Positions 1,900 through 36,326 of a DNA stretch of 64,000 nucleotides are shown here, piece by piece (positions within the stretch are counted from its first letter, which is position 1; each line of letters opens with the position of its first letter). Location of the stretch: positions 62,001 to 126,000 of the forward strand of contig JAISNV010000034.1 in assembly GCA_031276035.1 (NCBI GenBank), in the 5' to 3' direction. Below the pieces are notes generated by a model. That model saw only the letters and a list, made by a program, of their open reading frames with translations. It had not been told where the DNA came from and made no database searches. The position numbers were made by a program, and so were the translations under genes. Source of the DNA: Bacteroidales bacterium (GTDB lineage Bacteria; Bacteroidota; Bacteroidia; Bacteroidales; BM520).

Positions 1900-1945
1900 A
1901 CAAAGTCAAATATTTTGATTTAATTTGCAAAATAAAAAAATTTTT

Positions 1946-3130
1946 ATGATAGAAACAACACCTTTAATTGAAACCGGAATTCTTGTTGCGGTCATTCCGC
2001 AAAAAAATACTTTTGCAGAAGTCAAAGAATATCTCGATGAATTATCTTTTTTATACGAAACGGCTGGCGGACAAGAAATTGGAAGAGTGTATCAAAAAGT
2101 TGAATTTCCTAATCCGAAAACCTATGTCGGTAAAGGAAAATTGGAAGAAATTAAAAATCTTTGTATTGAAAAAGAAGCAAATACTGTTGTTTTTGACGAT
2201 GAACTAAGTCCTTCGCAACTAAGAAATCTTGAAGACTTTTTGAAATGTAAAATTTTAGACAGGACAAGTTTAATATTAGATATTTTTGCTAAAAATGCAC
2301 ATACGGCTCATTCAAAAGTTCAGGTTGAGCTTGCACAATGTCAATATATGTTGCCCCGATTGACCGGTTTATGGACTCACTTGGAACGTCAGCGTGGCGG
2401 TATCGGAATGCGTGGGCCGGGTGAAACAGAAATTGAAACCGATAGGCGTATTATCCGAAATAAAATTTCTCAATATAAAGAGGAATTAAAGAAAATCGAT
2501 ATGCAGAAATCAATTCAACGGGGAAATCGTGGAACAATGAAACGTATAGCCTTGGTTGGATATACAAACGTAGGGAAGTCAACAATTTTGAATTTACTTG
2601 CAGGTACCAATGTTCTTGCCGAAAACAAACTTTTCGCAACTTTAGATACTACAGTCAGAAAGATTGTCATAAACAGTCAGCCTTATCTTATTTCGGATAC
2701 CGTCGGATTTATCAGAAAATTACCAACAACTCTTATTGAGTCTTTCAAATCTACACTTGATGAAACACGCGAAGCGGATCTGCTTCTCCACGTTGTTGAT
2801 ATTTCGCATCCTAATTATGAACAGCAAATTGAAGTTGTAAAAAATACTTTGATGGAAATAGGTGCGGCAGATAAACCTGTGATTTATGTATTTAACAAGA
2901 TTGATGCGTTGAAAGAAGCAGAAAAACCCGATGTACCGGATTATCCCGAATTACTAGACTTAGAAAGTGGAGAGAATGTGGAAGTTATAGAGCAAGAAAA
3001 GGATACCCATTCTCTAGAATATTTAAAAAAACTATGGATTGGAAAGAAAAATACTCCTTCGGTTTTCATTTCGGCAAAAAATAAGGAAAATATTAACGAG
3101 TTGAAAGAAGCAATTGTGAAAGTCTTGTGA
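1946..3130 (+). CDS. hflX: GTPase HflX
   Basis: 394-residue ribosome-associated GTPase that, in studied bacteria, splits stalled or heat-damaged ribosomes. Visible: the HflX N-terminal domain, the family segment GGIGMRGPGETEIE (about 151-164), G1 GYTNVGKST (205-213), G3 DTVGF (251-255), G4 NKID and G5 SAK. Between G4 and G5 there is an acidic insert of about 50 residues that also carries one copy of the ACTTTCTAAGT word (reverse strand). An in-frame TTG at 1925 would add seven residues, but the ATG at 1946 is preferred because TTG is rarer and the family starts near here. No Shine-Dalgarno sequence is seen, as is usual in this phylum. Confidence 0.95.
   Translation: MIETTPLIETGILVAVIPQKNTFAEVKEYLDELSFLYETAGGQEIGRVYQKVEFPNPKTYVGKGKLEEIKNLCIEKEANTVVFDDELSPSQLRNLEDFLKCKILDRTSLILDIFAKNAHTAHSKVQVELAQCQYMLPRLTGLWTHLERQRGGIGMRGPGETEIETDRRIIRNKISQYKEELKKIDMQKSIQRGNRGTMKRIALVGYTNVGKSTILNLLAGTNVLAENKLFATLDTTVRKIVINSQPYLISDTVGFIRKLPTTLIESFKSTLDETREADLLLHVVDISHPNYEQQIEVVKNTLMEIGAADKPVIYVFNKIDALKEAEKPDVPDYPELLDLESGENVEVIEQEKDTHSLEYLKKLWIGKKNTPSVFISAKNKENINELKEAIVKVL
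2958..2968 (-). repeat. Interspersed palindrome copy (in hflX)
   Basis: ACTTTCTAAGT on the minus strand, followed by CTA. In frame within hflX, read as LDLES. Confidence 0.8.
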
Positions 3131-3208: not shown

Positions 3209-3219
3209 ACTTTCTAAGT
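3209..3219 (+). repeat. Interspersed palindrome copy
   Basis: ACTTTCTAAGT followed by TTA, between convergent hflX and the 3.3-kb gene. Confidence 0.8.
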
Positions 3220-3259: not shown

Positions 3260-3274
3260 AGACTTTCTAAGTCT
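3260..3274 (+). repeat. Interspersed palindrome copy, full 15 bases
   Basis: AGACTTTCTAAGTCT, 10 bp before the end of the 3.3-kb gene; direct orientation with the copy at 3209. Confidence 0.85.
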
Positions 3275-3805: not shown

Positions 3806-4753
3806 TTAAATAAATTCATTTCTCATCTTCGCAACTTTATTCCGTTGTTGTTCAATATATTCTTGATATTTTATATATTCAATTCCTTCCGACTTTTCAA
3901 CCCTGTGTTGTAATGCTTTATTTAATTTTTCAATTTCTTTTATCAATTCATAAGAAGATTCGTTAATATAATTCTCTTTGAATTTTTTCCAAATATAATC
4001 AATCGCCACATTATTAAGATGTAACATATCCTCCGAATAAAATCTGTAATCACGTAAATCATCCATAATAATTTCATAAGCAGGAAAATAAAATACATCT
4101 TCATTAGAGCTGCAAACTTCATCTACTGCAATAATTAATGTCGATTTACTTCTTTGATTTTCAACAGCTCCATTTTTCCAATGTCTGATCGGACTAATAG
4201 TCAAAATAATTTGTAAATCTTCTTTTAAGTTTCGAATATAATTTATGATTCTGTTTAATGATTCAACAGTTTCATCTAAACTTAATCTTCTTTGATAAAA
4301 TTGATTTGAGGGGAATTTGTGACAGTTACCTACAGGATAATCATTATCTATATTAAAATATACTATTGATGTTCCAAGAGTTAGAAAAATATAATCAGCA
4401 TTACAAATAAAATCATGGGCTTCGAGTATTGATGAATTAATTTTCATTAAACTTCGTGCTGCTTCAAAATCGGAAAATATTCCATGATGATTAAAACTTA
4501 ACCATTTATCATTAAAAAAAACTAAATCATTATGTTTGTATTGTTTTTCTTCGGAAATTTCCTTAATCATCGTTTCAATCGAATACGGATTATATAAAAT
4601 TCCATACGGATTAACAAGCGTATTAAATTGAAGTTGCGTCAAAATATTTCCGATATTTTCACTGAAGCAGGAGCCTATCAATAAAATATTGTCGTTATAT
4701 GAAATATTTAATTTTTTATCAATTGGAAATGTTGTTCGAAATTCATTTGTCAT
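3806..4753 (-). CDS. GSCFA domain protein
   Basis: 315 residues. Near the N-terminus the segment LLIGSCFSENIG carries the motif that names the GSCFA family (Pfam PF08885), a group with an SGNH-hydrolase-like fold common in Bacteroidota; its substrate is not established. A later segment near the C-terminus, FYSEDMLHLNNVAIDYIW, has the Asp and His expected for the second half of an SGNH-type active site (inference). Its ATG overlaps the relA stop by 4 bp, so it is translationally coupled to the (p)ppGpp synthetase. The C-terminal 40 residues are charged and probably helical. Confidence 0.85.
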   Translation of the reverse strand: MTNEFRTTFPIDKKLNISYNDNILLIGSCFSENIGNILTQLQFNTLVNPYGILYNPYSIETMIKEISEEKQYKHNDLVFFNDKWLSFNHHGIFSDFEAARSLMKINSSILEAHDFICNADYIFLTLGTSIVYFNIDNDYPVGNCHKFPSNQFYQRRLSLDETVESLNRIINYIRNLKEDLQIILTISPIRHWKNGAVENQRSKSTLIIAVDEVCSSNEDVFYFPAYEIIMDDLRDYRFYSEDMLHLNNVAIDYIWKKFKENYINESSYELIKEIEKLNKALQHRVEKSEGIEYIKYQEYIEQQRNKVAKMRNEFI

Positions 4754-6675
4754 ATGTTTAATTGATTTTTTGCATTAAACCATTTCAATTCAAGTATTTT
4801 ATATGAGTACCTCGAATATAAATAAGCTGCATTCGGGCATTTTCTGTTATGAATTTTAATGTCGGCATTTTGAGAAATAAATCCGAAAACCTCATCACCC
4901 GGATTTACTTCACAACAACCCGCAAAAACGCCTTTAACTCTTGTTTCATCTTCAACCATAACAAGATACATGTTATGCGCAGATTTACTTTTAGTCTGAA
5001 TTGTTTCTTTCTTTCCCTCGGACAGCTCCTTCATATTGTCGAGAAACCTTTTAACTTTTTGAGGACTAAGTCTCTCAGTCGCAATATCATGATATAAATC
5101 ATTTCCAAATTTATAATCGAAATAATTTATAATTTCATTAATTACCTCAACAAAATCATATTTCCAATTCTTTATCTTTCTTTTAAGAATATCTTTTCCA
5201 AGCTCAACAAGTCGTTCATATTCTTCATTTAATGATTTTCTTATTTGATATTTTGCCTTAGTTGTTGTTGCTATCTTTAACCATTCAACTGTAGGTTTCT
5301 GGGTTTTTAACGTCCGAATAAAAATTGTATCACCATTTTGAAGCTTATAGGCCTTATCAACATTTTTATTGTTGATTATGCCGCCAACACATTTATTTCC
5401 TATTTCGGAATGAATTTCATAAGCAAAATCAAGTAAAGTTGCACCGGCATTGAATCTTTTAATTTGTTTATTCGGCGTAAAAACAAAAATTTCATCAATT
5501 AAGGATTCCGGTTTCATATTTTCGAGGATTTCCGCAAGAGCAAGCTTATCATTTTCAAGAACTTCTCTGATATCCTCCAGCCATTTCTCCAAAGAGGTTG
5601 TTTTGGTTTTATCTTTATAAGACCAATGTGCTGCGGGACCATATTCAGCAACTTTATCCATTCTCTTCGATCTGATTTGAACTTCAACCCAAGTGCTGTT
5701 TTTACTTTGTACCGTTGTATGAAGAGATTCATATCCATTTTCTCGAGGAATGCTTATCCAGTCTCGCGTGCGAGAAACCATAGGAGTATAAACATCTGTT
5801 ATTGCAGCGTAAATCTGCCAACATAAAAGTTTTTCATCATTAAAATCAGAATCAAAAACAATTCTAATAGCATAAATATCATGTATATTTTCAATTGAAA
5901 TATTCTGATTATTAATCTTTTTCCAAATAGAAAAGGGTGATTTTATCCTACTCTTTATTTCAAAAGGAATATTAATTTCTTTTAGTAAATCTTCTATCGG
6001 CTTAATAAAATCCGACAAAAAGTTTTTATCCTTTTCAATTATCTCATCAAGCTTGTTCTTAATTTCTTCATAATCAACCTTATTAGTATGCTTAAATGAT
6101 CTCGTACTTAATTCCGTATAAATATTATACAAACCCATTCTATGTGCCAGCGGAGCATAAAGATACATTGCTTCAATACTAATTTTCTTTTGATAATCAT
6201 TATTAAAACAAATTATCTCACGCATAGTAATAAGCCTGTCTATCAATACTATCATCACAACTCTAATATCAACGGAAACGTTAATTAAAAGTTTTCTGAA
6301 ATATTCGGCTTTCGCTTCTACATCAATAAAATCGAGCTCGGTTATTTTTTGAATATTTTTGATAAACCCGATTGTCTCCGAAGACAATCTTTTTAAAAGA
6401 CTGTGATTCTGATAATCTTCAGGAATTTGATTTCGCGCCAACAGAGTAGCAATAACAGAGTCAATATCAAGGTTTAATTCTCTAAGAACAATTATTGTTA
6501 CTTTCAGATTATGTTGGTATATATTGAACCCATCTAATATATGCGGAGTCACTACATTACTTAGCTTTTCTTCGGCATAATCATTTATCTCTAATAAAAG
6601 ATTATAATCACTTTCGGAAAAACGTGCTTTTCCTTCACTAAACAATATTTCTTTAAGCTCAGTTAATGACTTCAT
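4750..6675 (-). CDS. relA: RelA-type (p)ppGpp synthetase with degenerate hydrolase domain
   Basis: 641 residues of the RelA/SpoT family, which makes the stringent-response alarmone from ATP and GTP/GDP. In the N-terminal HD-type domain the catalytic His-Asp dyad is missing: where active enzymes read LLHD, this one reads LLAR (residues 78-81), and the later DRLHN segment reads DRLIT (146-150). Hydrolysis is therefore probably lost. The synthetase looks intact: SRIKSPFSIWKK (242-253), HDIYAIRI with Asp266, NGYESLHT (313-320) and VEVQIRS with Glu332. A TGS domain (about 395-455) and a Cys-Cys zinc-finger-like region (AGCCEVNPGD) follow. The protein then stops early, without the C-terminal ACT domain of most long RSH proteins. 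Confidence 0.93.
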   Translation of the reverse strand: MKSLTELKEILFSEGKARFSESDYNLLLEINDYAEEKLSNVVTPHILDGFNIYQHNLKVTIIVLRELNLDIDSVIATLLARNQIPEDYQNHSLLKRLSSETIGFIKNIQKITELDFIDVEAKAEYFRKLLINVSVDIRVVMIVLIDRLITMREIICFNNDYQKKISIEAMYLYAPLAHRMGLYNIYTELSTRSFKHTNKVDYEEIKNKLDEIIEKDKNFLSDFIKPIEDLLKEINIPFEIKSRIKSPFSIWKKINNQNISIENIHDIYAIRIVFDSDFNDEKLLCWQIYAAITDVYTPMVSRTRDWISIPRENGYESLHTTVQSKNSTWVEVQIRSKRMDKVAEYGPAAHWSYKDKTKTTSLEKWLEDIREVLENDKLALAEILENMKPESLIDEIFVFTPNKQIKRFNAGATLLDFAYEIHSEIGNKCVGGIINNKNVDKAYKLQNGDTIFIRTLKTQKPTVEWLKIATTTKAKYQIRKSLNEEYERLVELGKDILKRKIKNWKYDFVEVINEIINYFDYKFGNDLYHDIATERLSPQKVKRFLDNMKELSEGKKETIQTKSKSAHNMYLVMVEDETRVKGVFAGCCEVNPGDEVFGFISQNADIKIHNRKCPNAAYLYSRYSYKILELKWFNAKNQLNI

Positions 6676-6697: not shown

Positions 6698-6712
6698 AGA
6701 CTTTCTAAGTCT
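6698..6712 (+). repeat. Interspersed palindrome copy, left half of inverted pair
   Basis: AGACTTTCTAAGTCT in the glnS-relA gap; paired head to head with the copy at 6728. Confidence 0.88.
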
Positions 6713-6727
6713 AGAGAATTTTGTTAA

Positions 6728-6738
6728 ACTTAGAAAGT
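6728..6738 (-). repeat. Interspersed palindrome copy, right half of inverted pair
   Basis: ACTTAGAAAGT on the plus strand; perfect 11-bp complement of 6700-6710, so the pair can form a larger hairpin. Confidence 0.88.
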
Positions 6739-9402: not shown

Positions 9403-9413
9403 ACTTTCTAAGT
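9403..9413 (+). repeat. Interspersed palindrome copy
   Basis: ACTTTCTAAGT followed by CTT (the one copy without purine at the last position), in the divergent region before glyS. Confidence 0.8.
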
Positions 9414-11123: not shown

Positions 11124-11531
11124 ATGAAAATAATTAAATCAATTACTTGTGCTTTAGTGTTATTGATAACTCTAACTTCTTGTGGTAAAAAAACCGACGA
11201 GCAAATCATAACGAATAACGTTAAAAGTTTTGCAAAGGCATTGTATTCCGGTGATTTCAAAAAAGCTGCAAAATATTGCACTAAAGATGCGGCAGAATCT
11301 ATTATTATGATAGAAGGTTTGATAACAGAAGATATGCTTAAGGATATGAAAAAAACTAATCCTTCTGTAGAAATAATAGAAATTTCTATCGACGAACTTA
11401 GTCTTACTGCTCGTGTAAAATGTATAATAAAAGGGGCATACGACTTAAATTCAAAAACCGGAATCAGTCCTGATGAAATTCCTACTTCTTTTATTTTATA
11501 TAAAGAAGAAAAGAAATGGTTAATAAATTAA
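11124..11531 (+). CDS. Small lipoprotein, DUF4878/NTF2-like
   Basis: 135 residues with a signal peptide and lipobox LTSC at about 17-20, so it is predicted to be lipid-anchored. The mature part has the layout of small NTF2-like (DUF4878-type) lipoproteins: an early helix ending in FAKALYSGDFKKAAKYC, a central acidic region, and final strands ending FILYKEEKKWLIN. Family assignment is by overall pattern only; ligand and role are unknown. It sits 13 bp after glyS and 41 bp before mutA, so it may be co-transcribed with either. Confidence 0.75.
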   Translation: MKIIKSITCALVLLITLTSCGKKTDEQIITNNVKSFAKALYSGDFKKAAKYCTKDAAESIIMIEGLITEDMLKDMKKTNPSVEIIEISIDELSLTARVKCIIKGAYDLNSKTGISPDEIPTSFILYKEEKKWLIN

Positions 11532-11572
11532 TTTCGATTACTATATATTGTTTAATCAACATATTATAATTT

Positions 11573-13441
11573 ATGAATGATAAATTGTTCACTCAATTCC
11601 CCCCTATTTCTACTCAAGAATGGGAAGATTTGATATTAAAAGATTTAAAGGGTGCCGATTATGAGAAAAAGTTGGTTTGGAAAACTAACGAAAACATCTC
11701 TGTCCAACCTTATTATAGAGAAGAAGATTTAGAAAGTGCTTTTCAACTTTCAAAAAACGGCACTTTCCCCTATCGTAAAATGAATGATTCCAATTGGAAA
11801 GTACGACAAGATTTTTTTGTTAATGATGATCTGTCGAATATTAACGAACAAATTCATACCGCAATTAACAATGGCGTAACTTCAATCGGCTTAAATATTA
11901 CAGACTTAGAAAGTCTTGATAAAGAGTATCTCTATAAACTTTTAAGGGGAGTTTGTCCGGAAATGACAGAAATAAATTTCATCTGTAATGATAATGTATT
12001 AAAACTTCTCGGTTTAATTAAAGATTTTTTTACGGATGAAAAATTAATTGCTGAAAGAATTTATATAAATATTGAATTTGATCCTTTTGAAAAATTCATC
12101 ACCGAAGGAAAAAGTTCTCTCGAAGGTATTGAAACCCTCCGTTTGCTAATTTTAAATAGCGGTTTCGCACCTAATATGCGTGTCGGAGTTATTAATGCCG
12201 GACTTTTTGCAAATTGCGGTGCAAGTATTGTCGAAGAAATTGCTTTTGGAATTAGTGAATTTGCCGATCTACTTGATTATCTCACCGAAGCCGGATTAAC
12301 AATTGATGAAATCGCTAAGAGATTAAAATTCAAGACTAGTATTGGATCAAATTATTTTATGGAAATAGCAAAAATAAGGGCTATTCGTTTCATTTGGACA
12401 AAAATTGTTGAAGCTTACGAACCGACAAATATTGATAATTGTAATATTTATCTTCATGCCGAAACTTCTTCTTGGAACAAAACTTTGTATGATCCGTATG
12501 TGAATATGTTGAGAACAACAACAGAATCAATGTCTTCAATTTTAGGAGGAATTGATTCTCTAAATATTCTTCCTTTCAATTTTATTACAATGCAAAATGA
12601 TGATTTTGCGTTTAGAATTGCCCGTAATCAACAACTTCTTCTTAAAGAGGAATCTAATTTTGATAAAGTTGCTGACCCGGCTGCCGGTTCTTATTATATC
12701 GAAAATTTAACTTCTCAAATAATTAACCGTACTTGGGAACAGTTTTTAATGATTATTGAAAAACACGGATTTATTAATTGTTTCAAAAATAATTTTATTC
12801 AAGATATTATTTCCGAATCTTCTACCAAAAGGGATAATGCTATTGCAACCAGAAAAGAAAATTTTGTAGGAGTAAATCAATTTCCTAATATTACTGAAAC
12901 TATTGATTTCGAATTAAAAGACAACGAAGAAACTCCGGAAATACCATCATGTTGTGCAGGTGAAGAATCTGACAGTTTTAAAACTTTACAAACATATAGG
13001 GGGCCGGAAGCTTTTGAAAGACTTCGTTTAAAAACAGAACTTTTTACAAAAGAAACCGGACACAGGCCTACTGTTTTCTTGTTTACTTATGGAAACCTTG
13101 CTATGAGAATAGCTCGTGCCGGATTTGCTTCCAATTTCTTTGGTTGTGCCGGTTATGAAATTATAAATAATAACGGATTTACTTCTGTGGAAGTAGGAGT
13201 TGCCGCTGCTAAGGCTTCTAATGCAGATATTGTAGTTATTTGTAGTGCCGATGAAGAATATGAAGTAATTGCTCCTGAAATTTATAACGGACTAAAAGAT
13301 GATGCAATAATAGTTATTGCCGGCAATCCGAAGGACTCAATGGATAAATTAACTTCTATAGGAATTAAACATTTTATTCATGTTAAAACCAATCTTTTGG
13401 AAAGTCTTGAGTATTTTCAGGATATAATTCTTAATTACTAA
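11573..13441 (+). CDS. mutA: Methylmalonyl-CoA mutase, small (beta) subunit
   Basis: 622 residues. This subunit pairs with MutB to interconvert succinyl-CoA and (R)-methylmalonyl-CoA, the B12-dependent step of propionate formation in Bacteroidales. The N-terminal TIM-barrel part and a C-terminal cobalamin-domain-like fold ([15 protein letters not shown] to about 620) are recognisable, but the DxHxxG cobalamin motif is absent, as expected for the non-catalytic subunit. The gene carries a full 15-base copy of the interspersed palindrome at 11902-11916, read in frame as TDLESL. mutB starts 11 bp after its stop. Confidence 0.95.
11902..11916 (-). repeat. Interspersed palindrome copy, full 15 bases (in mutA)
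   Basis: AGACTTAGAAAGTCT inside mutA, read in frame as DLES plus Leu. Confidence 0.85.
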
Positions 13442-17843: not shown

Positions 17844-18292
17844 ATATGTTTTTTATCAATTTGTTGTGATGAAAGAAAAAAATACAACTTTCTAAGTTTA
17901 TAGAAAATTTTTCACTTGTTAAATCAATGTTAATTTTTACACAATTTTCTGTTAATATTTTTTTTTATTTGTTTAAAAATATTTCATTTATAAGTTATCA
18001 TCAATTTTCGCTGTCAAAAGTTATTATATAAATATAATTTTCAACTGTTAGCAAAATATACGTCTATTATCAATATATTTTGTTAATAATAAAACTATAT
18101 TTATAAAACTCTTATTTAAAATAAAGTATGTTCATTGAATATTTTTATTTTGAACAAAATACATTTTTTTTTTGTTAATAAATAAATTATCAACAAAATT
18201 CACAACATCATCATTAAACAAATCATTTTCTTTTTAAAATAAAAATATTTTTAATAATGATAGATTGTTAATTTCCATTTTGATTAAATAAA
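17844..18292. other. Very AT-rich intergenic region between rpiB and the MORN gene
   Basis: No gene seen. It holds one interspersed-palindrome copy (17887-17897), long T and A runs, and several words resembling DnaA boxes: TTTTACACA at 17935-17943 fits the relaxed TTWTNCACA form, and TTATCAACA at 18187-18195 differs from TTATCCACA by one base. TTATCAACA also forms an imperfect inverted repeat with TTTGTTAATAA just before it. It is the longest gap in the window. It may be only a double promoter region; an origin role is speculative. Confidence 0.4.
17887..17897 (+). repeat. Interspersed palindrome copy
   Basis: ACTTTCTAAGT followed by TTA, in the AT-rich gap upstream of rpiB. Confidence 0.8.
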
Positions 18293-18317: not shown

Positions 18318-19814
18318 ATGAAATATAAATCTTTTTTGTTTTTCATTTATATGTTTACTTGCGTTCATTTGTTTTCTCAGGAAAATATTGAATATAAAAA
18401 GTTCTATTATAATAACGGAACTTTGTCAAGCGAAGGAACTTTAACAGATGGTAAACCAGATGGGTACTGGAAATCATATTACAACACAGGTATTTTAAAA
18501 TCTGAAGGAAATAGAGTTGATTTTGTTTTAGACGGTATATGGAAATTTTATTCTGAAGATGAAAAATTAAATTTGTCTATTGAATATAGAAATGGGAAAA
18601 AAGATGGGAATAGAATTAGTTATCAACAAAATATAATTGTTTCTGAATCTTTTAAAGATGATAAAAAGAATGGGATGACTTATACTTATGATTATAATAA
18701 TAATGTTTTGAAATCAATCAATTATATTGATGATCTGGAACATGGTTGGATGAAGGAATTTGATAATACTGGTAGAATTATACAAATTACAAGATATAGA
18801 AATGGATTTATTATTAGTAGTGAATGGATTAATAGACTTGATAAAAACGGTTTAAGACAGGGAAGATGGGTAGAATTTCATGAGAATGATAATATTTCAA
18901 AAGAAGAATTTTATATAAATGATAAATTAACAGGATATGCCAAGTATTATGATAAAAACGGAAATTTAATTGATGTATTCAAGTATGAAAATGGAAATAA
19001 AGTTGTTGATTCTAAAGAAGTTGTCAAAGTTGATATAAAGAAAGATTATTATCCGAACGGAAAATTAAAAACAATAGCTACATATAAAAATAATATTCCT
19101 GATGGGGTAAGAAGAGATTATGATACAATAGGAAATATTACTGATTCTTTTCTTTTTGAAGATGGAATTGTTATTGGTGAAGGAATTATTGATGAACACA
19201 TGAAACGTCACGGACAATGGAAGGATTATTATAAAGATGGTTTATTGAGGGCTGAAGGAAGATATAATGACGGAAAAAAAGTAGGAAAATGGATCTATTA
19301 TCATAATAATGGAAATATTGAACAAGAAGGATATTATAATGAAAACGGAGATTATCAAGATATTTGGATTTGGTATTATTCAACAGGTGAACTTTTAAGA
19401 GAAGAAACATTTATTAATGGTTTCGAAAATGGAATATTTTTTGAGTATTCTGAAGAAGGAAATATATTAGTTCAAGGTAATTATAATTATGGTTTAGAAG
19501 ATGGTTTATGGACATATAATGTTAATGAAATTCTTGAACAAGGATACTATAAAAATGGGAACAAGGATGGAGAATGGATTACGAAAAATAAAGATGGAAT
19601 AATAATTAAAAAGGAGAAATTTCTTGATGGGAATCCGGATGGAAAACAGTTTTATTATTATTCGGACGGAAAGATATATAGAGAAGAGAATTATATAAAT
19701 GGTTTTGAGGATAACGATTGGTATTATTATGATAAAAATGGTGATATTTTTCTAATAATTAAATATGATTCTGGACAAGAAATAATGTATAATCAAGTTA
19801 AAATAGTGTTTTAA
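18318..19814 (+). CDS. Secreted MORN/YwqK-like repeat protein
   Basis: 498 residues with a signal peptide ending near HLFSQ (about residue 20). The rest is a run of roughly 20 imperfect units of 20-25 residues with the pattern YYxNGxLxxEGxYxxGKxxGxWxxY, for example DGYWKSYYNTGILKSEG. This is the MORN_2 repeat, often labelled YwqK-family antitoxin by automatic annotation. I see no toxin partner, so that label is not supported here. It is probably an exported beta-rich scaffold or surface protein. Its TAA overlaps the ATG of tadA (TAATG), so the two are translationally coupled. Confidence 0.85.
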   Translation: MKYKSFLFFIYMFTCVHLFSQENIEYKKFYYNNGTLSSEGTLTDGKPDGYWKSYYNTGILKSEGNRVDFVLDGIWKFYSEDEKLNLSIEYRNGKKDGNRISYQQNIIVSESFKDDKKNGMTYTYDYNNNVLKSINYIDDLEHGWMKEFDNTGRIIQITRYRNGFIISSEWINRLDKNGLRQGRWVEFHENDNISKEEFYINDKLTGYAKYYDKNGNLIDVFKYENGNKVVDSKEVVKVDIKKDYYPNGKLKTIATYKNNIPDGVRRDYDTIGNITDSFLFEDGIVIGEGIIDEHMKRHGQWKDYYKDGLLRAEGRYNDGKKVGKWIYYHNNGNIEQEGYYNENGDYQDIWIWYYSTGELLREETFINGFENGIFFEYSEEGNILVQGNYNYGLEDGLWTYNVNEILEQGYYKNGNKDGEWITKNKDGIIIKKEKFLDGNPDGKQFYYYSDGKIYREENYINGFEDNDWYYYDKNGDIFLIIKYDSGQEIMYNQVKIVF

Positions 19815-20260: not shown

Positions 20261-20272
20261 ATTTTTATTTAA

Positions 20273-20283
20273 ACTTAGAAAGT
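20273..20283 (-). repeat. Interspersed palindrome copy beside the RAYT gene
   Basis: ACTTAGAAAGT plus CT on the plus strand (14 of 15 bases of the full form), between tadA and the RAYT gene. Confidence 0.85.
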
Positions 20284-20379
20284 CTTAAAAAAGTAATCTT
20301 AATATTGGTAATGTTTTTAGGTTTTATGCAATTATATTATATAGTAATTAATTTTTTATTAATTAAATATAAATATGTT

Positions 20380-21045
20380 ATGCGTAAAACTAATTTTAAA
20401 AATTTATTTGCTTCAATGATTGAAGAAAGAATATATCATATTTTCAATCAGGGAAATAATAAGGAAGATATATTCCGCAGTGAAGAAAATAAAAGATATT
20501 TTATGGAAAAATTAAATAAATATATTGGTCCATTTGCTGATATTGGAATAAAATGTTTAATGAATAATCATTTCCATATTGTTTTAAAGATTAAGCCATA
20601 TAAAATTATGGCATTACAGATTCCACATGTAAAAGGATTAACACAAGTAATAGAGAGACATAAACGAATTGGTAAACGCAATGAAGATAGTATAATAATA
20701 AGTGAAATGTTACGAAGATTTTTTATGTCTTATGCTAAGGCTTTCAACAAAATGTATAATAGAACGGGTAGTCTGTTTAGAAAAAATTTCAAAAGAAAAT
20801 TAATAACAACAAAGAGATATTTGCGAAACATATTGTTGTATATACATAAAAATCCTAAAATTCATAAATTTACAGATGAATTTATAAATTATCCGTGGAG
20901 TAGTTACCAAGAATATTTAATAGGAGATATAAAAAATAGTTTTGCCAAACAGATACTTGAATTATTTGATAGTCAGAAAGATTATATTTGTGCTCATATA
21001 AAATATGTAATAGAAGATGATGATGACATAATAATATTAGAATAA
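20380..21045 (+). CDS. REP-associated tyrosine transposase-like protein (Y1_Tnp, RAYT)
   Basis: About 221 residues of the Y1/HUH single-strand nuclease superfamily (IS200-like, Pfam Y1_Tnp), in the single-copy RAYT group. Visible, counted from 20380: YHIFNQGNNKEDIF (19-32), the metal-binding HUH motif in NNHFHIVLK (62-70), a helix FFMSYAKAFN with candidate nucleophile Tyr118, then NRTGSLFRKNFKR and NYPWSSY. The frame is open from a TTG at 20305, but residues before about 20416 are hydrophobic and not family-like; ATGs at 20380 and 20416 are both plausible starts. No IS ends or target duplications were found. It lies beside a palindrome copy (20273-20283) and converges with the kinase gene, 4 bp apart. 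Confidence 0.87.
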   Translation: MRKTNFKNLFASMIEERIYHIFNQGNNKEDIFRSEENKRYFMEKLNKYIGPFADIGIKCLMNNHFHIVLKIKPYKIMALQIPHVKGLTQVIERHKRIGKRNEDSIIISEMLRRFFMSYAKAFNKMYNRTGSLFRKNFKRKLITTKRYLRNILLYIHKNPKIHKFTDEFINYPWSSYQEYLIGDIKNSFAKQILELFDSQKDYICAHIKYVIEDDDDIIILE

Positions 21046-21049
21046 AAAC

Positions 21050-24000
21050 CTATTTTAATAAAGGTAAAATAATTTGAAATAAAGCACCATTTTCTGAATG
21101 TAAATTATAAATTTCACCACCTGAACCTTCAATAATATTCTTAACGATAGCGAGCCCAAGCCCTGTCCCACCCGACTTTGTTGTAAAATTTGGAAGAAAA
21201 ATTTTTGTTTTCATCTTATTGGATATACCTGGACCATTATCTTGTATTTCTATTATTACTGAAGAATCATTAATATAAGTATTGATATCAATTTTTAAAA
21301 CTTTTTCAGGTTCTTTTTCATTTTTAAAGGCTTGAATAGAATTTCTAATTAAATTATGAAAAACACGAGTTATTAAATTTTGATCAGCATAAATAAAAAT
21401 ATTTTCTTCATTTGAATGAAGAATAATCTTGATATTTATCTGATTATAAAAATCTATTATTTGATTAATTGTTGCAATAATATTTAATTTTTCATTTTTT
21501 GCTTCTGGTAAGTTCGCAAAATTACTAAAAGCTGTTGCAATTTCCGATAAAGAGTCTATTTGGGAAATCATTGTCTCTTTATATTTTTCTATTTGTTTAT
21601 CAAAGCTTTCCTGATCTTCCTTCCAGAGTTTATAAATATATTGAGTAGAAAGTTTCATTGGTGTTAACGGATTCTTTATTTCATGTGCGATTTGTTTAGC
21701 CATTTCTCGCCAAGCACTTTCTCTTTCAGACTTAGAAAGTAGATTAACACTTTTTTCTAACTCATCAACTTTCAGATTATATACTTCAACTAATTTTCCT
21801 ATTTCATCATCTTGAATGTAATCTATTTTTTCATTTGTTTTTTGTAAACTAAGACTTGAAAGTTTATCTTTTAGCATTCCAAGAGGACGGGTAATAAACC
21901 TGGAAAGTATATATGTCATAATAATTGCAACAATAATGATTATCAAATATAAGTTTATAAAAGAAATAATATAATTTCTGATTTCATTCTGTAATTCAAC
22001 TTGTTTGGTAAAGTATGGAATGTTTAAAAAGTATATCTTATCATTTTTATCTGAAAAAACCATATAAGAAGAAAGATATGTATATGAACCAATGTTTTCC
22101 TTATGTAAAAAGCGATTATTATTCTGTAAATTCTGAAAGGCATCAATATTGATTAAAGATGAAGATATATTATTTAAAAGCATTTCTTCATTTGATGTTC
22201 CGATAAGAAACCCGTCTTGATCATAAACATTTATGTCTAGAAAATGAATACCGGAAAGATTTACTAATATTTCATTTAAATAATCGTGTTGATCTTCAGA
22301 ATAGTTAATTATTTGTGCTAATTCTTTACTAAGTGAATGTGTTTTCTCAATTAAAATATCTTCGTTTTTATTATTATTTAGCGAAATAACAAGGGAAATT
22401 GAAAATATGCCAATTATTAAGCTTATTATTATAAAGAAAATAATGGATGAATTCTGAATTTTCTGCTTTAAACTTGTATTACCGAAAGACTTTTGTTGTG
22501 AGAAAAAATTAACTATTAAACAAGACAAAAAATATACAAATAATAAACAAATAAAAATCAATGAAAATACTGAAAATATGTAAGTTATTATGCTATATGA
22601 TTTACTTATTATAATCAACAAATCATCTTCTGTCTTATTTTTAAAAACAAAATGTTTATATCCGTGTTCAACGTAATAATAATCTCCATCTCTGCTTTTT
22701 TCATCTTCAGAAACATAATCTTTATAAGAATATTTTCCGATGCTTCTAATTAGATAATTATCAATATAAATACCAATTGAATATTTGCTAAGATTAATAC
22801 TATATAGCTGAGACTCAGGAGTTGATAATATTTCAGAATAACCAATTCCTTCTAAATTATATTTTGGAATAATATCAAACCAAATATCATAATTTTTTGT
22901 TTTTAAATGATAAATATAGTACGGAACATCATGAAGATCTCTAATGTAATTTAAATTATTATCTAAGGTTTTTATTCCATAATTTTCTGTAAACCAATTG
23001 AAATAATTATTGCAATTGTAAATATTTGTGTCATTATCTATTTGTATTGTTGTTGCAGAATCGGCAATAATATATTTAACATAATATTTTGATAAATAAC
23101 CGTAATTGAAATGTTCATTAATTAAATTGTTTAGATAAATTGAATTTTCATTCTGTATTAAATTATTCATTGACAAATTGTAAATCAAAGAATCATTTTT
23201 AAATTCGCTAAGAATCCAGGATAATGTTTGTTCAACTAAAGAATTTCTTATAAAAATATTATCATTTGCAATTAATTTTGCGTTAATTTCTTCTTTTTTA
23301 TTGTTTGAATTGTTAAATAAAACAGTTAAAAGAATAGAAATAACAAAAACAATTGAAAGTATAACCGGTGATAGAACCTTATTGGTTTCTTTATTTAATA
23401 TTCTGAAAATTAAGTTTGAAGAAATTATTATTATTGAGGTAGCAGTTAAAAGAATAGAAAGATATATTAAAATAGAAAAAATATTAGTTTTCGATAATTG
23501 TAAAAAGACAATATCAGTTGTGCTGATAATGAATATTTTATTGATAATAAAAAAACATAATAAAATTATTATCATAAAAATGAGGTAGAATATAACGTTT
23601 ACAAGAGGCTTTTTTCTTGAATTATATTCTTTCTTGTCAATATTAAATATAAAAATAATAATTAATAAAAAGAAAAAGGAACTGATTAATAAATCTCCAG
23701 GGTTATCTAACAAAAAGTAAATATTTGAAAACTTTTTATTAAAAATAGGTGAGCAAAAAAATGAAAAAGAACAAATAAACTTAGAAAGTAGTCTTAACGC
23801 AATGGTAATTAATATTCCAAAAAGGATTTTTCTTTTTGTGTTAATATGATTATTCGAATTTAGAGAAAAGAACAAGAAATAATAAAGAATAATACATATA
23901 AGAAATATAAACAAAATTGAAGATGTTTCTGAAATACAGTATAATAACGATGAATTGTTTTTATAATTTATAGAAAAAATAAAGTCTTTTTCCGAATTAA

Positions 24001-24526
24001 ATATATCACCTTCGTTATTCGTGCTTGAGGAAAAATTGAAATCAAATTTTTCCGAAATTTTAAAATAAGAATTTATTTTATTATTTATATATTGATTTTC
24101 TATATTATATGTATTCTTAAGTGGAAGTAAAGTTATAAGTATAATGTTTTTATCTTCGTATTTTTTACTATAATTAATAGAATTATTGGTATAATAAATA
24201 GAATTATTTTGAAGGGTAGAAAAAACGATAGGGTAGTTACTTTCATTATTTGACCAAAAAACTAGGGAGGAATCTATATATATTAGAACTGTGGAATAAT
24301 TTGTAAATATATTATTTTCAATAAAAGACAAACTATCATCATTATTATTTACAAAAAAATCTTCAGCAAAAGAAATAGAATTCTTTTCAAAATTCAAAAT
24401 TTTATTTTGAACTCTTTTTTTGGTTTGATTAAAGGTATTTGTTGAATAATTGAATAATTCAATACTAACAATTGTACAAACAATTAAAAAACAAAGAGAA
24501 AGTAAGATTTTTTTATTTCTATTCAT
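21050..24526 (-). CDS. NtrY-like membrane sensor histidine kinase
   Basis: 1158 residues. The N-terminal half has many hydrophobic helices (one at the N-terminus, a cluster over about 200-400, further ones near 650-700) flanking extracytoplasmic Asn-rich regions. Then come a HAMP-like linker (RPLGMLKDKLSSL), the phosphoacceptor AHEIKNPLTPMKLS (His about 948), the N box NLIRNSIQAF, and the G boxes DNGPGIS and GGTGLGLAIVKN. The H box with NPLTPMK is NtrY-type. No response regulator is adjacent. The frame extends to a TTG at 24547, but the ATG at 24526 gives a clean signal-anchor start and a 4-bp gap after cls. Two palindrome cores lie inside the gene (21730, 23779). Confidence 0.9.
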   Translation of the reverse strand: MNRNKKILLSLCFLIVCTIVSIELFNYSTNTFNQTKKRVQNKILNFEKNSISFAEDFFVNNNDDSLSFIENNIFTNYSTVLIYIDSSLVFWSNNESNYPIVFSTLQNNSIYYTNNSINYSKKYEDKNIILITLLPLKNTYNIENQYINNKINSYFKISEKFDFNFSSSTNNEGDIFNSEKDFIFSINYKNNSSLLYCISETSSILFIFLICIILYYFLFFSLNSNNHINTKRKILFGILITIALRLLSKFICSFSFFCSPIFNKKFSNIYFLLDNPGDLLISSFFFLLIIIFIFNIDKKEYNSRKKPLVNVIFYLIFMIIILLCFFIINKIFIISTTDIVFLQLSKTNIFSILIYLSILLTATSIIIISSNLIFRILNKETNKVLSPVILSIVFVISILLTVLFNNSNNKKEEINAKLIANDNIFIRNSLVEQTLSWILSEFKNDSLIYNLSMNNLIQNENSIYLNNLINEHFNYGYLSKYYVKYIIADSATTIQIDNDTNIYNCNNYFNWFTENYGIKTLDNNLNYIRDLHDVPYYIYHLKTKNYDIWFDIIPKYNLEGIGYSEILSTPESQLYSINLSKYSIGIYIDNYLIRSIGKYSYKDYVSEDEKSRDGDYYYVEHGYKHFVFKNKTEDDLLIIISKSYSIITYIFSVFSLIFICLLFVYFLSCLIVNFFSQQKSFGNTSLKQKIQNSSIIFFIIISLIIGIFSISLVISLNNNKNEDILIEKTHSLSKELAQIINYSEDQHDYLNEILVNLSGIHFLDINVYDQDGFLIGTSNEEMLLNNISSSLINIDAFQNLQNNNRFLHKENIGSYTYLSSYMVFSDKNDKIYFLNIPYFTKQVELQNEIRNYIISFINLYLIIIIVAIIMTYILSRFITRPLGMLKDKLSSLSLQKTNEKIDYIQDDEIGKLVEVYNLKVDELEKSVNLLSKSERESAWREMAKQIAHEIKNPLTPMKLSTQYIYKLWKEDQESFDKQIEKYKETMISQIDSLSEIATAFSNFANLPEAKNEKLNIIATINQIIDFYNQINIKIILHSNEENIFIYADQNLITRVFHNLIRNSIQAFKNEKEPEKVLKIDINTYINDSSVIIEIQDNGPGISNKMKTKIFLPNFTTKSGGTGLGLAIVKNIIEGSGGEIYNLHSENGALFQIILPLLK
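21730..21740 (-). repeat. Interspersed palindrome copy (in kinase gene)
   Basis: ACTTTCTAAGT on the coding strand, read as LSKS. Confidence 0.78.
23779..23789 (-). repeat. Interspersed palindrome copy (in kinase gene)
   Basis: ACTTTCTAAGT on the coding strand, read as LSKF. Confidence 0.78.
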
Positions 24527-24530
24527 AAAC

Positions 24531-25994
24531 TTAAAGTAGAGGAGCAAATAATCGACAAATAGATTCTTTTATTTTTGTGCCAATTGAACGTTTTTTCCAT
24601 TCTGAAAGTACAAGTAAATCACAACTTTCTAAGTCTGATTGAAACATCTTCCTCATTTCCGTATTAAAGTGTTTATCATAAAACAAAGCATTCAATTCAT
24701 AATTGGAAAAAAATGAACGGTAATCATAATTTGTACTCCCGATTGTTGATAGAGAGTTATCAACAATCGTTATTTTAGAATGAATGAATCCTTTTTTATA
24801 AATATAAAATTTTACTCCAACAGAAGCTAAACTATCTATATATGAATTTGTTGCCGAAGTTGTTATTTTATTATCGGATTTTTTTGGAATAATAATTTTT
24901 ACGTCAACACCACTTAATGCGGCATTTTGAAGAGCCATAATTATTTCATCAGGGGGTGCAAAATATGGTGTTTCTATTAAAATTTCTTTCTCAGCATTTG
25001 TTATTGCAATGAAAAGAGTATTCAGAATTGATTGATATTCGGAATCAGGACCGGAATCTACTAATTGTACTATACATTCTTTTTCGGTAGAGAAATCACC
25101 GGAAAAAATTTCAGATTCGAAGTCATTATTTTGTTTACTAACAAACTTCCAGATGTTAAAAAACTGAAGTTGGAAAGACTTAACAGCATCTCCGCATACA
25201 CGTACTGCAGTATCTCTCCAAAAGCGTTTATTTTTTGGATTTCCGTTGTTAATATATCTATCGGCAATATTCATTCCGCCGGTATAGGCAATATTACCGT
25301 CAATAACGACAAGTTTTCTGTGATCGCGAATGTTTACAAAACGGAAAAGTTTTGGAGTGAATATAGGTAGGAATGAGAAAACTTCTATATTGTTTTCACG
25401 AAGTAATCGGAACATTTTTTTGTTAATCGAACGAGAACCGAAGCTATCAATTATAAAACGTACTTTAACTCCTTCATTTACTTTTTGAATTAAAATATTA
25501 AGTATTTCATTTCCAATGACATCATTATCAAAAATATAAAATTCTAAATGTATATGTTTTTTTGCATCTTTTAAATCTTTAATTAAATGCTTATAGAATT
25601 CTTCTCCGTTTATTAATAGTTTAATGTCATTGTAATAGGTAGGAGAAGCGTTATCAAAAAGAAATAACATGTTGATTATCTTATTCCATTCTTTAAAAGG
25701 AGAATTTCTTTTTGTGGATTTTTCTTCTATCATAGAATACATTTCTGTTTTCCAGAGACTTATCTTTCTTCTTTCGCTGTGCCACTTCTTTGATACAAAA
25801 GTTGATTTGTTCATTTTGTAAGCTAAAAAAAGAAAAAGAATTAGTCCCACAATTGGAAAAACAATAAGTAAACCGATGAGAGCTGCGGAGTATATTGGTT
25901 TTCTGTTTTCTAAAAGTACTTTTATAACTATTGCAATAATTATAATATAGTAAATAATAGAAAGAATTAATAAGATTTTATCAACATGTAACAT
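24531..25994 (-). CDS. cls: Cardiolipin synthase, phospholipase D family
   Basis: 487 residues, inner-membrane enzyme joining two phosphatidylglycerols into cardiolipin. Two N-terminal membrane helices (about 6-24 and 33-58) precede two phospholipase D HKD motifs: DHRKLVVIDGNIAYTGG and HSKITIVDNSLSTIGS. The C-terminal segment NYDYRSFFSNYELNA is also typical. It lies upstream of the kinase gene on the same strand. One in-frame palindrome copy is read as DLES near the C-terminus. Its ATG is 41 bp downstream of the first parS site (26035-26050) on its strand. Confidence 0.94.
   Translation of the reverse strand: MLHVDKILLILSIIYYIIIIAIVIKVLLENRKPIYSAALIGLLIVFPIVGLILFLFLAYKMNKSTFVSKKWHSERRKISLWKTEMYSMIEEKSTKRNSPFKEWNKIINMLFLFDNASPTYYNDIKLLINGEEFYKHLIKDLKDAKKHIHLEFYIFDNDVIGNEILNILIQKVNEGVKVRFIIDSFGSRSINKKMFRLLRENNIEVFSFLPIFTPKLFRFVNIRDHRKLVVIDGNIAYTGGMNIADRYINNGNPKNKRFWRDTAVRVCGDAVKSFQLQFFNIWKFVSKQNNDFESEIFSGDFSTEKECIVQLVDSGPDSEYQSILNTLFIAITNAEKEILIETPYFAPPDEIIMALQNAALSGVDVKIIIPKKSDNKITTSATNSYIDSLASVGVKFYIYKKGFIHSKITIVDNSLSTIGSTNYDYRSFFSNYELNALFYDKHFNTEMRKMFQSDLESCDLLVLSEWKKRSIGTKIKESICRLFAPLL
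24624..24634 (+). repeat. Interspersed palindrome copy (in cls)
   Basis: ACTTTCTAAGT on the plus strand; the coding strand reads DLES. Confidence 0.78.
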
Positions 25995-31998: not shown

Positions 31999-32013
31999 AG
32001 ACTTAGAAAGTCT
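31999..32013 (-). repeat. Interspersed palindrome copy, full 15 bases
   Basis: AGACTTAGAAAGTCT on the plus strand, in the divergent region between the DUF4175 and guanylyltransferase genes. Confidence 0.85.
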
Positions 32014-33241: not shown

Positions 33242-35056
33242 ATGAGAAACGATTTTTTTGAAAAAAGAAAATATTTAATAATAGGATTTATCAGTGTTAT
33301 ATTTTTAATAATGCTGGTAAAACTTTTCTTTATTCAAATAGTTAATAAGTCGTATAAAATCTATGCAGAAAATAATTCTGTAAAGGAAAAAATAATTTAT
33401 CCGGGACGAGGATTAATATACGATAGAAATGATAATTTAATTGTTTGTAATGAAGCTGTTTACGATTTGCTTGTAACACCGAATATGGTGAAGAAAAATT
33501 TTGATACAACCGCTTTTTGTAAATTGGTAAATATTGATATTGAAAAATTTGAAGAATTACTAAATAAAAGTAAGAGATATTCAAGATATAAGCCGTCGGT
33601 TTTTATTTCACAAATTCCAAAGGAAGAAATTGCAAAAGTTGAGGAATCTCTTTACATGTTCGATGGTATAGAAATACAAGCAAGAACAGTCCGCAGATAT
33701 CCCTATCCGGTTGGAGCTCATCTGTTTGGTGATGTAGGAGAGGTTAGTGAAAATTTCCTTAGAAATAATCCTGAATATAGACTTGGAGATTATACAGGCT
33801 TGAATGGCCTTGAAAAAAAATACGAAAAAAATCTCAAAGGTGTTAAAGGAGTTAAACAAGTTCTTGTAAATGTTCATAATGTGGAAATGGGTCCCTATAA
33901 TAACGGCGAAAATGATATTTCTGCAAAACAAGGCGACGATTTAATTCTGGAATTGGATATTGATCTTCAGACTTATGCTGAAAAATTAATGAAACATAAG
34001 AAAGGAAGTATTGTTATTATTGACCCAAAAACCGGAGGAATTTTAACATTAGTTTCCGCTCCTTCTTATGATCCGAATTTGCTTGTAGGAAGAGAAAGAG
34101 CGGCAAATTATAGAATGTTGGTTAACGATACAATATATACTCCTTTGTTAAATAGAGCTTTAATGGGAGAATATCCTCCAGGATCAACTTTTAAGATGTT
34201 TAATGCCTTAGTTGCACTTCAAAATGGAAATATTACTAATTATACACGGTTTTCTTGTGCAGGTCCTGAGGCAACGCCGATAAAATGCACCCACTATCAT
34301 GAATCACCACTAAACGTAGTTGCCGCATTACGAGAATCTTGTAATCCGTTTTTTCGAATATCTTTCGAAAATTATATCAACTCTTTTAGTTCTTCTGCTG
34401 AAGGATTAAACAACTGGGCGGAAGCAGCAAGAAGTTTTGGCTTGGGAAAAACTTTTGAAACTGATTTAGCGTACAGCAATAAAGGAAATATTCCGGATGC
34501 AAACTATTACGATAGAATGTATAATAATCAAAGATGGAAATCAAGCACAATTCGCTCTTTATCAATTGGTCAAGGAGAAATTTTAGTTACTCCGATCCAG
34601 TTGGCTAACTTTGCAGCCGCAATTGCTAATGATGGCCAATACATTGACCCGCATTTTGTTAAAGCCGTTATTTCAAGAAATGATACAATCTATCCTTTTG
34701 AAAAAAATGTTCATCAAACACTTATTGATAAGAAACATTTTGTTCCGATCAAAGAAGGTATGTACGAGGTTATTAAGAGAGGAACCGCAAGATGGTACGG
34801 ACAAGTTGAAGGAATTGAAATTTGTGGAAAAACAGGAACAGTACAAAATGCCGGAGAAAATCACGCGTTATTTATTGGTTTTGCACCGAAAGATAATCCG
34901 GAAATTGCAATTGCTGTTGTTGTTGAAAATTCCGGTTACGGAAGTACCTTTGCTGTGCCGATAGCTTCTTTACTCATTGAGTATTATCTTAATAGAGAAG
35001 TAAAAAGAATAAATGTAGAAGAATATGTTCTTAACACTAAATTAATTGAATATTGA
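33242..35056 (+). CDS. mrdA: Penicillin-binding protein 2 (elongation transpeptidase)
   Basis: 604-residue transpeptidase of the rod (elongation) complex. One N-terminal membrane helix (about 12-32), then a PBP dimerisation domain (PGRGLIYDRND), then the transpeptidase with active-site STFK (Ser about 315), the SxN motif in ESCNPF and KTGTVQN near 530. It acts outside the inner membrane, cross-linking peptidoglycan with the RodA glycosyltransferase encoded next. The rodA ATG follows its stop by one base. Confidence 0.95.
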   Translation: MRNDFFEKRKYLIIGFISVIFLIMLVKLFFIQIVNKSYKIYAENNSVKEKIIYPGRGLIYDRNDNLIVCNEAVYDLLVTPNMVKKNFDTTAFCKLVNIDIEKFEELLNKSKRYSRYKPSVFISQIPKEEIAKVEESLYMFDGIEIQARTVRRYPYPVGAHLFGDVGEVSENFLRNNPEYRLGDYTGLNGLEKKYEKNLKGVKGVKQVLVNVHNVEMGPYNNGENDISAKQGDDLILELDIDLQTYAEKLMKHKKGSIVIIDPKTGGILTLVSAPSYDPNLLVGRERAANYRMLVNDTIYTPLLNRALMGEYPPGSTFKMFNALVALQNGNITNYTRFSCAGPEATPIKCTHYHESPLNVVAALRESCNPFFRISFENYINSFSSSAEGLNNWAEAARSFGLGKTFETDLAYSNKGNIPDANYYDRMYNNQRWKSSTIRSLSIGQGEILVTPIQLANFAAAIANDGQYIDPHFVKAVISRNDTIYPFEKNVHQTLIDKKHFVPIKEGMYEVIKRGTARWYGQVEGIEICGKTGTVQNAGENHALFIGFAPKDNPEIAIAVVVENSGYGSTFAVPIASLLIEYYLNREVKRINVEEYVLNTKLIEY

Positions 35057-35057
35057 T

Positions 35058-36326
35058 ATGTCTAAAAGAGGTTCAATAATAAAAAGTATGGATTTCGGCA
35101 TAGTATTAATATATGTTGTTTTAGTAGCATTGGGGTTGTTAAATATTTTTTCTACTACAAGCGGGCCAAATCCTGAAAATATAAATTTTAGTTTTTCAAC
35201 AAATTATGGACGACAAGCTCTGTTTATCGGAGTGTCTTTTTTAATTGCTTCTGTAATATTATTGATGGACGCAAACTTCTTTAATAAACTTTCTTATGTG
35301 ATTTACTTTTTAATATGTTTACTCCTAATTCTGGTTTTAATAATCGGAACTGAAATATCGGGAGCAAAAGCTTGGATTCAGATCGGATCGTTTTCTCTGC
35401 AACCGGCAGAGTTTGCGAAATTTGCTACCGCATTAGCACTTTCTAAGTTTATAAGTGAAAATCAATTTTCTAAAATGAACAACAAAAACAAGCTAATTGT
35501 AATGGCAATAATATTTTTCCCCGTAGTATTGATTATGTTACAACCCGATGCAGGCTCAGCGCTAGTGTTTTTCTCGTTTTTTATTGCCTTGTTCAGAGAA
35601 GGTTTATCAATGAATGTTATTTTTTTAGCATTTTATTTCCTCGTTTTAATAGTACTTTCTTTATTGGTTAATCAATTTATTCTTCTGGGAGCAATCTTTG
35701 TAATCGCAATATTTGCATATTTCTTATTTCGAAAACAAAAAAGAGTAATCCCGTATCTTATAACTTCCTTTATTCTTTCGGCAATATGCATTTTTTCTGT
35801 CGATTATGTTTATGATAATGTTTTACAAACGCATCAGAAAGATAGAATAGAAGTTCTTTTAGGTTTAAAAGATGATATTAAAGGAGTTGGCTATAATGTT
35901 CATCAATCGAAAATTGCGATTGGCTCCGGCGGATTTGCCGGAAAAGGTTATCTCAACGGAACACAAACAAAATTCGATTTTGTGCCCGAACAGCAAACAG
36001 ATTTTATTTTTTGTACGGTAGGTGAAGAATTTGGTTTTTTGGGAAGTATGGTCGTCTTAGGTTTGTTTTTAACATTAATTATCAGAATTATTCTTTTAGC
36101 GGAACGACAGCGTTCCTCATTCAGCAGAATTTATGGCTATTGTGTTGCCGGAATTTTCTTTTTACATGTAGCTATAAACATTTCAATGACAATAGGATTA
36201 CTTCCTGTTATAGGAATTCCTCTACCATTTTTCAGTTACGGAGGATCCAGCTTAATGGCATTTACAATTTTGCTATTTATTTTTGTAAAGTTAGATGCAA
36301 ATAGATTTAATCAACTTGGTAATTAA
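35058..36326 (+). CDS. rodA: Rod shape-determining protein RodA (SEDS)
   Basis: 422-residue SEDS family peptidoglycan glycosyltransferase with about ten membrane helices. Visible: SGAKAWIQIGSFSLQPAEFAK, QPDAGSALVF, a long loop with QQTDFIFCTVGEEFGF, and the C-terminal LPFFSYGGSS. A TTG at 35046 would overlap mrdA, but the ATG at 35058 sits right after its stop and fits the family. An in-frame palindrome core at 35438 encodes ALSKF. It works with the PBP2 encoded upstream. Confidence 0.95.
   Translation: MSKRGSIIKSMDFGIVLIYVVLVALGLLNIFSTTSGPNPENINFSFSTNYGRQALFIGVSFLIASVILLMDANFFNKLSYVIYFLICLLLILVLIIGTEISGAKAWIQIGSFSLQPAEFAKFATALALSKFISENQFSKMNNKNKLIVMAIIFFPVVLIMLQPDAGSALVFFSFFIALFREGLSMNVIFLAFYFLVLIVLSLLVNQFILLGAIFVIAIFAYFLFRKQKRVIPYLITSFILSAICIFSVDYVYDNVLQTHQKDRIEVLLGLKDDIKGVGYNVHQSKIAIGSGGFAGKGYLNGTQTKFDFVPEQQTDFIFCTVGEEFGFLGSMVVLGLFLTLIIRIILLAERQRSSFSRIYGYCVAGIFFLHVAINISMTIGLLPVIGIPLPFFSYGGSSLMAFTILLFIFVKLDANRFNQLGN
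35438..35448 (+). repeat. Interspersed palindrome copy (in rodA)
   Basis: ACTTTCTAAGT followed by TTA, read in frame as LSKF. Confidence 0.78.

Follow-up and report, generated by a model that had tools for sequence, protein, structure and literature searches.

Four RAYT genes of a Bacteroidota genome lie within local clusters of one short DNA hairpin, partly specific to each enzyme

How REP elements spread and what RAYTs do for the cell are long-standing open questions. In a 64,000-nucleotide stretch of a Bacteroidales bacterium (assembly GCA_031276035.1, contig JAISNV010000034.1, positions 62,001 to 126,000; hereafter the window), an earlier note, made from the sequence alone, found a RAYT-like gene about 100 bp from a short palindrome that is scattered through the flanking DNA, and inferred a possible REP-RAYT system. 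Is the palindrome really enriched, is the gene really a RAYT, and are the two linked? To assess first the enrichment, copies of the palindrome were counted. The 15-mer AGACTTAGAAAGTCT has five exact copies in the window. When up to 3 mismatches were allowed, 26 matches were found (some palindromes being counted on both strands) against 2.9 expected, and 0 of 100 shuffles reached that number. The copy beside the gene, at 20271-20285, is AAACTTAGAAAGTCT, a 14/15 match whose core begins 12 bp after the previous gene. The core common to all copies is 11 nt, ACTTAGAAAGT, a 4-bp stem with a 3-nt loop (ACTT-AGA-AAGT). It is present in 15 copies in the window and 125 in the 2.69-Mb genome, against 2 for the reversed string. 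The main features of the window are listed in Table 1.

Table 1. Positions of the RAYT gene, hairpins and two repeat-containing ORFs in the window. G002 is the closest relative of the genome analysed; G003 and G004 are congeners.
Position	Strand	Feature
20380..21045	+	RAYT (Y1/HUH REP-associated tyrosine transposase) gene, 221 aa from ATG (an upstream in-frame TTG at 20305 would give 246 aa); HUH = NHFH (H64, H66), tyrosine Y154 in YIHKNP
20269..20283	+	hairpin unit upstream of the RAYT, tag TTAA + ACTT-AGA-AAGT, same strand as the gene, core ending 96 bp before the ATG
3262..3272	-	intergenic hairpin core, tag CTAG, first of a direct pair with 3209-3219
3209..3219	-	intergenic hairpin core, tag TTAA, second of the direct pair
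6700..6710	-	hairpin core, tag CTAG, just upstream of the ORF at 4750-6675; divergent pair with 6728-6738
6728..6738	+	intergenic hairpin core, tag TTAA
8605..8615	+	intergenic hairpin core, 15-mer exact
9403..9413	-	intergenic hairpin core
17887..17897	-	intergenic hairpin core
32001..32011	+	intergenic hairpin core, 15-mer exact
11904..11914	+	hairpin core inside a 622-aa gene (residues DLES); aligned without a gap to G002 (NLKS) and G004
2958..2968	+	hairpin core inside the ORF 1925-3130 (DLES)
21730..21740	+	hairpin core inside the histidine-kinase-like ORF 21050-24547 (antisense to it); aligned without a gap to G003 and G004 orthologues
23779..23789	+	hairpin core inside the same ORF (antisense)
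24624..24634	-	hairpin core inside the ORF 24531-25994 (DLES)
35438..35448	-	hairpin core inside the ORF 35046-36326
18318-19814		498-aa ORF of degenerate repeats with YYxxGxL/DGxW patterns, resembling MORN-type repeats, two genes upstream of the RAYT
45135-48398		1087-aa ORF of many degenerate repeats in multiples of about 147-156 nt with a GCDS-type motif; probably a surface repeat protein

We next sought to establish the identity of the protein. Pfam alone barely detected it (Y1_Tnp, E 0.07), and a phmmer search against the PDB found no relative. The NCBIfam model REP_Tyr_transpos (NF047646) matched at E 3e-9, although its 36.9 bits are below the cut-off of 80. Of 6 control genomes that match this family, only 1 is over the cut-off, so the cut-off does not define the family at large. 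In an alignment with 38 named homologues, nearly all from records named as Bacteroidota, H64 and H66 are invariant, and Y154, N158 and P159 are nearly invariant. The AlphaFold2 model (pLDDT 87.5) has as its best PDB match 4er8, the E. coli RAYT bound to a REP hairpin (E 1.8e-6, probability 1.00, 12% identity), followed, among other folds, by IS200/IS605 transposases (ISDra2 and IS608). The protein is therefore a RAYT. Contrary to the earlier note, which described RAYTs as single-copy, the genome carries four of them, on contigs 34 (the window), 25, 15 and 19. They share 36-64% identity and are thus old paralogues and not recent copies. A fifth NF047646 match, on contig 10, lies inside a large DNA-methylase-like ORF and was not counted as a RAYT of this kind. 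Of note, the RAYT of contig 25 (locus L042:1456-2112) carries FIHRNP where the others have YIHKNP, and therefore lacks the catalytic tyrosine.

We then analysed the colocalization of hairpins and RAYT genes. All four RAYT genes have one to three hairpin copies upstream in gene orientation, the nearest about 75-110 bp before the start codon. No hairpin (2 mismatches allowed) was found within 300 bp downstream of any of them, so the classic two-sided REPtron is absent. Hairpin density falls with distance from the nearest RAYT: 0.66, 0.41, 0.30, 0.30, 0.074, 0.034 and 0 per kb for <1, 1-5, 5-10, 10-20, 20-40, 40-80 and 80-160 kb. Within 25 kb, 54 copies were found where 8.8 are expected (p 3e-29). 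The gradient holds separately for coding DNA (0.21, 0.11, 0.03 and 0.02 per kb; p 9e-5) and intergenic DNA (2.3, 2.7, 1.0 and 0.2 per kb; p 7e-6).

The earlier note reported that the classic REP flanking tetranucleotide (GTAG/GGAG) is not present. A conserved 5' foot tag does exist, however, with T at -3 in 94% and a purine at -1 in 100% of intergenic copies, although the first G is usually missing. It reads NTAG or NTAA around the RAYTs of contigs 34, 15 and 19, the NTAG copies being one base from GTAG. Interestingly, around the RAYT of contig 25, which is 36-38% identical to the other three, its last two bases are CA or GG (TCA/TGG) in 11/14 copies, against 1/44 (p 2e-8). Within one genome, the clusters thus differ in tag as the RAYTs at their centres differ in sequence, which, together with the density gradient and the copies in coding DNA, gives a natural within-genome experiment for RAYT specificity and range of action. 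As the contig-25 RAYT lacks the catalytic tyrosine, its copies were either made before inactivation or are kept as binding sites. The hairpins often form direct pairs, with TAG before TAA in 7 of 7 mixed same-strand pairs around the three TAG/TAA RAYTs, a polarity that recalls the left and right ends of IS200/IS605.

To determine whether hairpin and RAYT change together between genomes, 80 genomes (this one included) were searched. The hairpin is at background (0-8 copies) in 78 of them, the exceptions being this genome (G000) and G002. Congener G004 has two RAYTs, and upstream of both stand hairpins with the same stem and another loop, ACTT-RGG-AAGT (ACTT-GGG-AAGT among them); 5 of its 8 genomic copies are on the two RAYT contigs. 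More distant Bacteroidota RAYTs have other hairpins beside them. The genome G022 carries 94 copies of ACTTTGACAAAGT, 18 of them in the 13 kb examined around one of its RAYTs, while most genomes have 0-2. All four ACCTGACAGGT copies of the genome G007 lie in and beside its RAYT gene, and the genomes G006 and G063 have four each at theirs; by contrast, the genome G032 has 63 copies with no RAYT found at E 1e-5. In G006 (C338:25679-26909) and G007 (C89:568-1880), these hairpins lie within the spans of the RAYT genes as well as beside them, like the in-frame REP insertions described for TnpA-REP subclass 2.4. Many of the hairpins of these other genomes form inverted pairs 18 nt apart, as in REPINs, whereas the pairs of G000 are mostly direct. 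In a blind test, 14 of 71 named RAYT loci had a repeated perfect hairpin in their flanks, against 12 of 842 control positions (p 4e-10). This test demanded stems of at least 5 bp and so misses short ones, and 14/71 is a lower bound.

The comparison of genomes with and without the RAYT, proposed in the earlier note, was only partly in favour of the link. Congeners G001 and G003, which have no convincing RAYT match, have no copies of the hairpin. However, G002 has 54 copies and no RAYT match even at E 5, although this genome is only 74% complete, so that loss and missing sequence cannot be told apart. At the position where contig 15 of G000 has its RAYT, weak blastn matches in G002 were AT-rich noise, and a different IS200-like TnpA (DHIHIL ... 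YIRNQENHH; locus L196 on contig 50, about 11460-12600) stands next to the conserved upstream hairpin, with tandem copies of a repeat containing GTGCAACGCACCG on either side. Presence or absence of the gene does not by itself set the genome-wide hairpin level, but the local excess does track it.

The location of many copies inside genes is intriguing. Of 90 copies inspected in G000, 40-47 are intergenic, depending on the ORF rule. In G002, 46 of 47 inspected copies lie in open reading frames, in several frames (44 of 47 with a stricter ORF rule). Aligned against G000, about nine differing coding copies show no indel in or near the hairpin, and often only one to four changed bases. Coding copies in the window likewise align without gaps to orthologues in G003 or G004 where these could be compared. 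By contrast, one intergenic copy on contig 15 coincides with a clean 16-nt gap in G002, the size of tag plus hairpin. Between genes the hairpin can thus behave like an inserted REP, while inside genes it seems to arise or be kept by substitution. A chance codon-usage origin of the coding copies was set aside, since exact copies exceed their average one-mismatch neighbour by about 20-fold (G002) and 30-fold (G000), and the tag is conserved in frames other than the commonest (Leu-Glu-Ser) one.

Taken together, these results support, with good confidence, the pairing inferred in the earlier note, namely a REP-RAYT system of the Bacteroidota type. RAYT is an HUH nuclease predicted to bind the single-stranded hairpin through its 5' foot tag and stem-loop, as E. 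coli TnpA-REP does. From the known biochemistry of TnpA-REP (ssDNA cleavage and strand transfer at the hairpin with the tag as guide; PMC8266576), we infer that RAYT cuts and rejoins the hairpin on exposed, probably lagging-strand, ssDNA. It could so deposit or convert copies mainly in DNA close to its own gene, either because it acts in cis or because donor and target share one replication neighbourhood. Copies would accumulate freely between genes, while inside genes only those that keep the reading frame would survive. Insertion does not explain how copies arise in coding DNA without a length change. A bolder and rather unlikely possibility is that these RAYTs write their own recognition motif into neighbouring DNA, inside genes too, by replacing near-matching sequence without changing its length, for example by single-stranded hairpin DNA annealing at the replication fork and being joined in. 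Each RAYT would then build a cloud of cognate sites of about 20 kb radius with its own tag, a local, sequence-templated rewriting process not known for REPs or insertion sequences. Selection for binding sites is an alternative.

Other explanations were considered. The best of them, though still unlikely, is that the hairpins are binding sites through which RAYT acts as a regulator or local chromosome organiser and no longer moves DNA. The hairpin upstream of every RAYT gene could be an autoregulatory operator, and the contig-25 RAYT has a clear cluster without the catalytic tyrosine. However, three of the four RAYTs keep the HUH and Tyr motifs, and copies inside genes on either strand do not look like operators. 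It is slightly less likely that RAYTs are inserted preferentially into regions already rich in the hairpin, using it as a landing site. The conserved hairpin beside a different TnpA in G002 is consistent with this, but it explains neither the separate tag of the contig-25 cluster nor why hairpin and RAYT change together between genomes. A host-used DNA motif (an uptake-signal, recombination or nucleoid-protein site) accumulating genome-wide by point mutation, with RAYTs merely near some copies, is doubtful. The coding copies in several reading frames, the substitutions between G000 and G002 orthologues and the copies of G002 are in its favour, and DNA uptake sequences (DUS/USS) are likewise enriched in coding DNA and differ by point substitution between relatives. 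Against it, density peaks at each of the four RAYTs and drops to 0 beyond 80 kb on those contigs, 54 of 125 copies lie in 7% of the genome around the RAYTs, the tag differs with the neighbouring RAYT, and the hairpin changes with the RAYT in other genomes. Finally, an ordinary IS200/IS605 element with the hairpins as its ends or decayed copies is very unlikely despite the shared fold family, subterminal hairpins with 5' guide tetranucleotides and end-like direct pairs, since no hairpin lies downstream of the four genes within the 300 bp examined, the proteins are not near-identical copies, and no tnpB was seen in the neighbourhoods read.

Atypical hairpins beside Bacteroidota RAYTs have already been described. 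Subclass 2.6 of TnpA-REP (Bertels group 5), mostly in Bacteroidetes, comprises single-domain Y1 HUH proteins whose genes are accompanied by weak hairpins lacking GT[AG]G, with copies elsewhere in the genome, found by manual inspection near the gene (PMC6006769). Judged by phylum and hairpins, the present system fits that kind, though its motifs (NHFH and YIHKNP) differ by a residue from the published NH[LIV]H and YIH[QN]NP, its hairpins are upstream only, and four RAYTs share one stem-loop. In the papers that could be searched, we found no report of the distance gradient, the difference of tags between clusters, or copies in coding DNA. The hairpins also depart from the REP criteria of a GC-rich basal stem of 7-20 nt (PMC6006769) and of extragenic location, their stem being 4-6 bp and mostly A+T. 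Compared with the GTAG-tagged REP/BIME of E. coli, they likewise have a 5' tetranucleotide foot tag, but the stem is short and AT-rich rather than long and GC-rich with a bulge, many copies lie in coding DNA, and copies are clustered around the gene, where E. coli REPs appear to be dispersed between genes.

Interestingly, about a dozen related Bacteroidota RAYT genes sit just upstream of CRISPR arrays, an arrangement for which no description was found in the papers searched. In two of these loci, L087 (5618-13692) and L158 (5746-13712), ORF and Pfam analyses showed the order cas9 - RAYT - cas1 - cas2 - array on one strand. In ten further loci (L100, L115, L116, L132, L135, L151, L157, L168, L173 and L174), a CRISPR-like array starts about 1.4-1.9 kb downstream of the RAYT in the same orientation.
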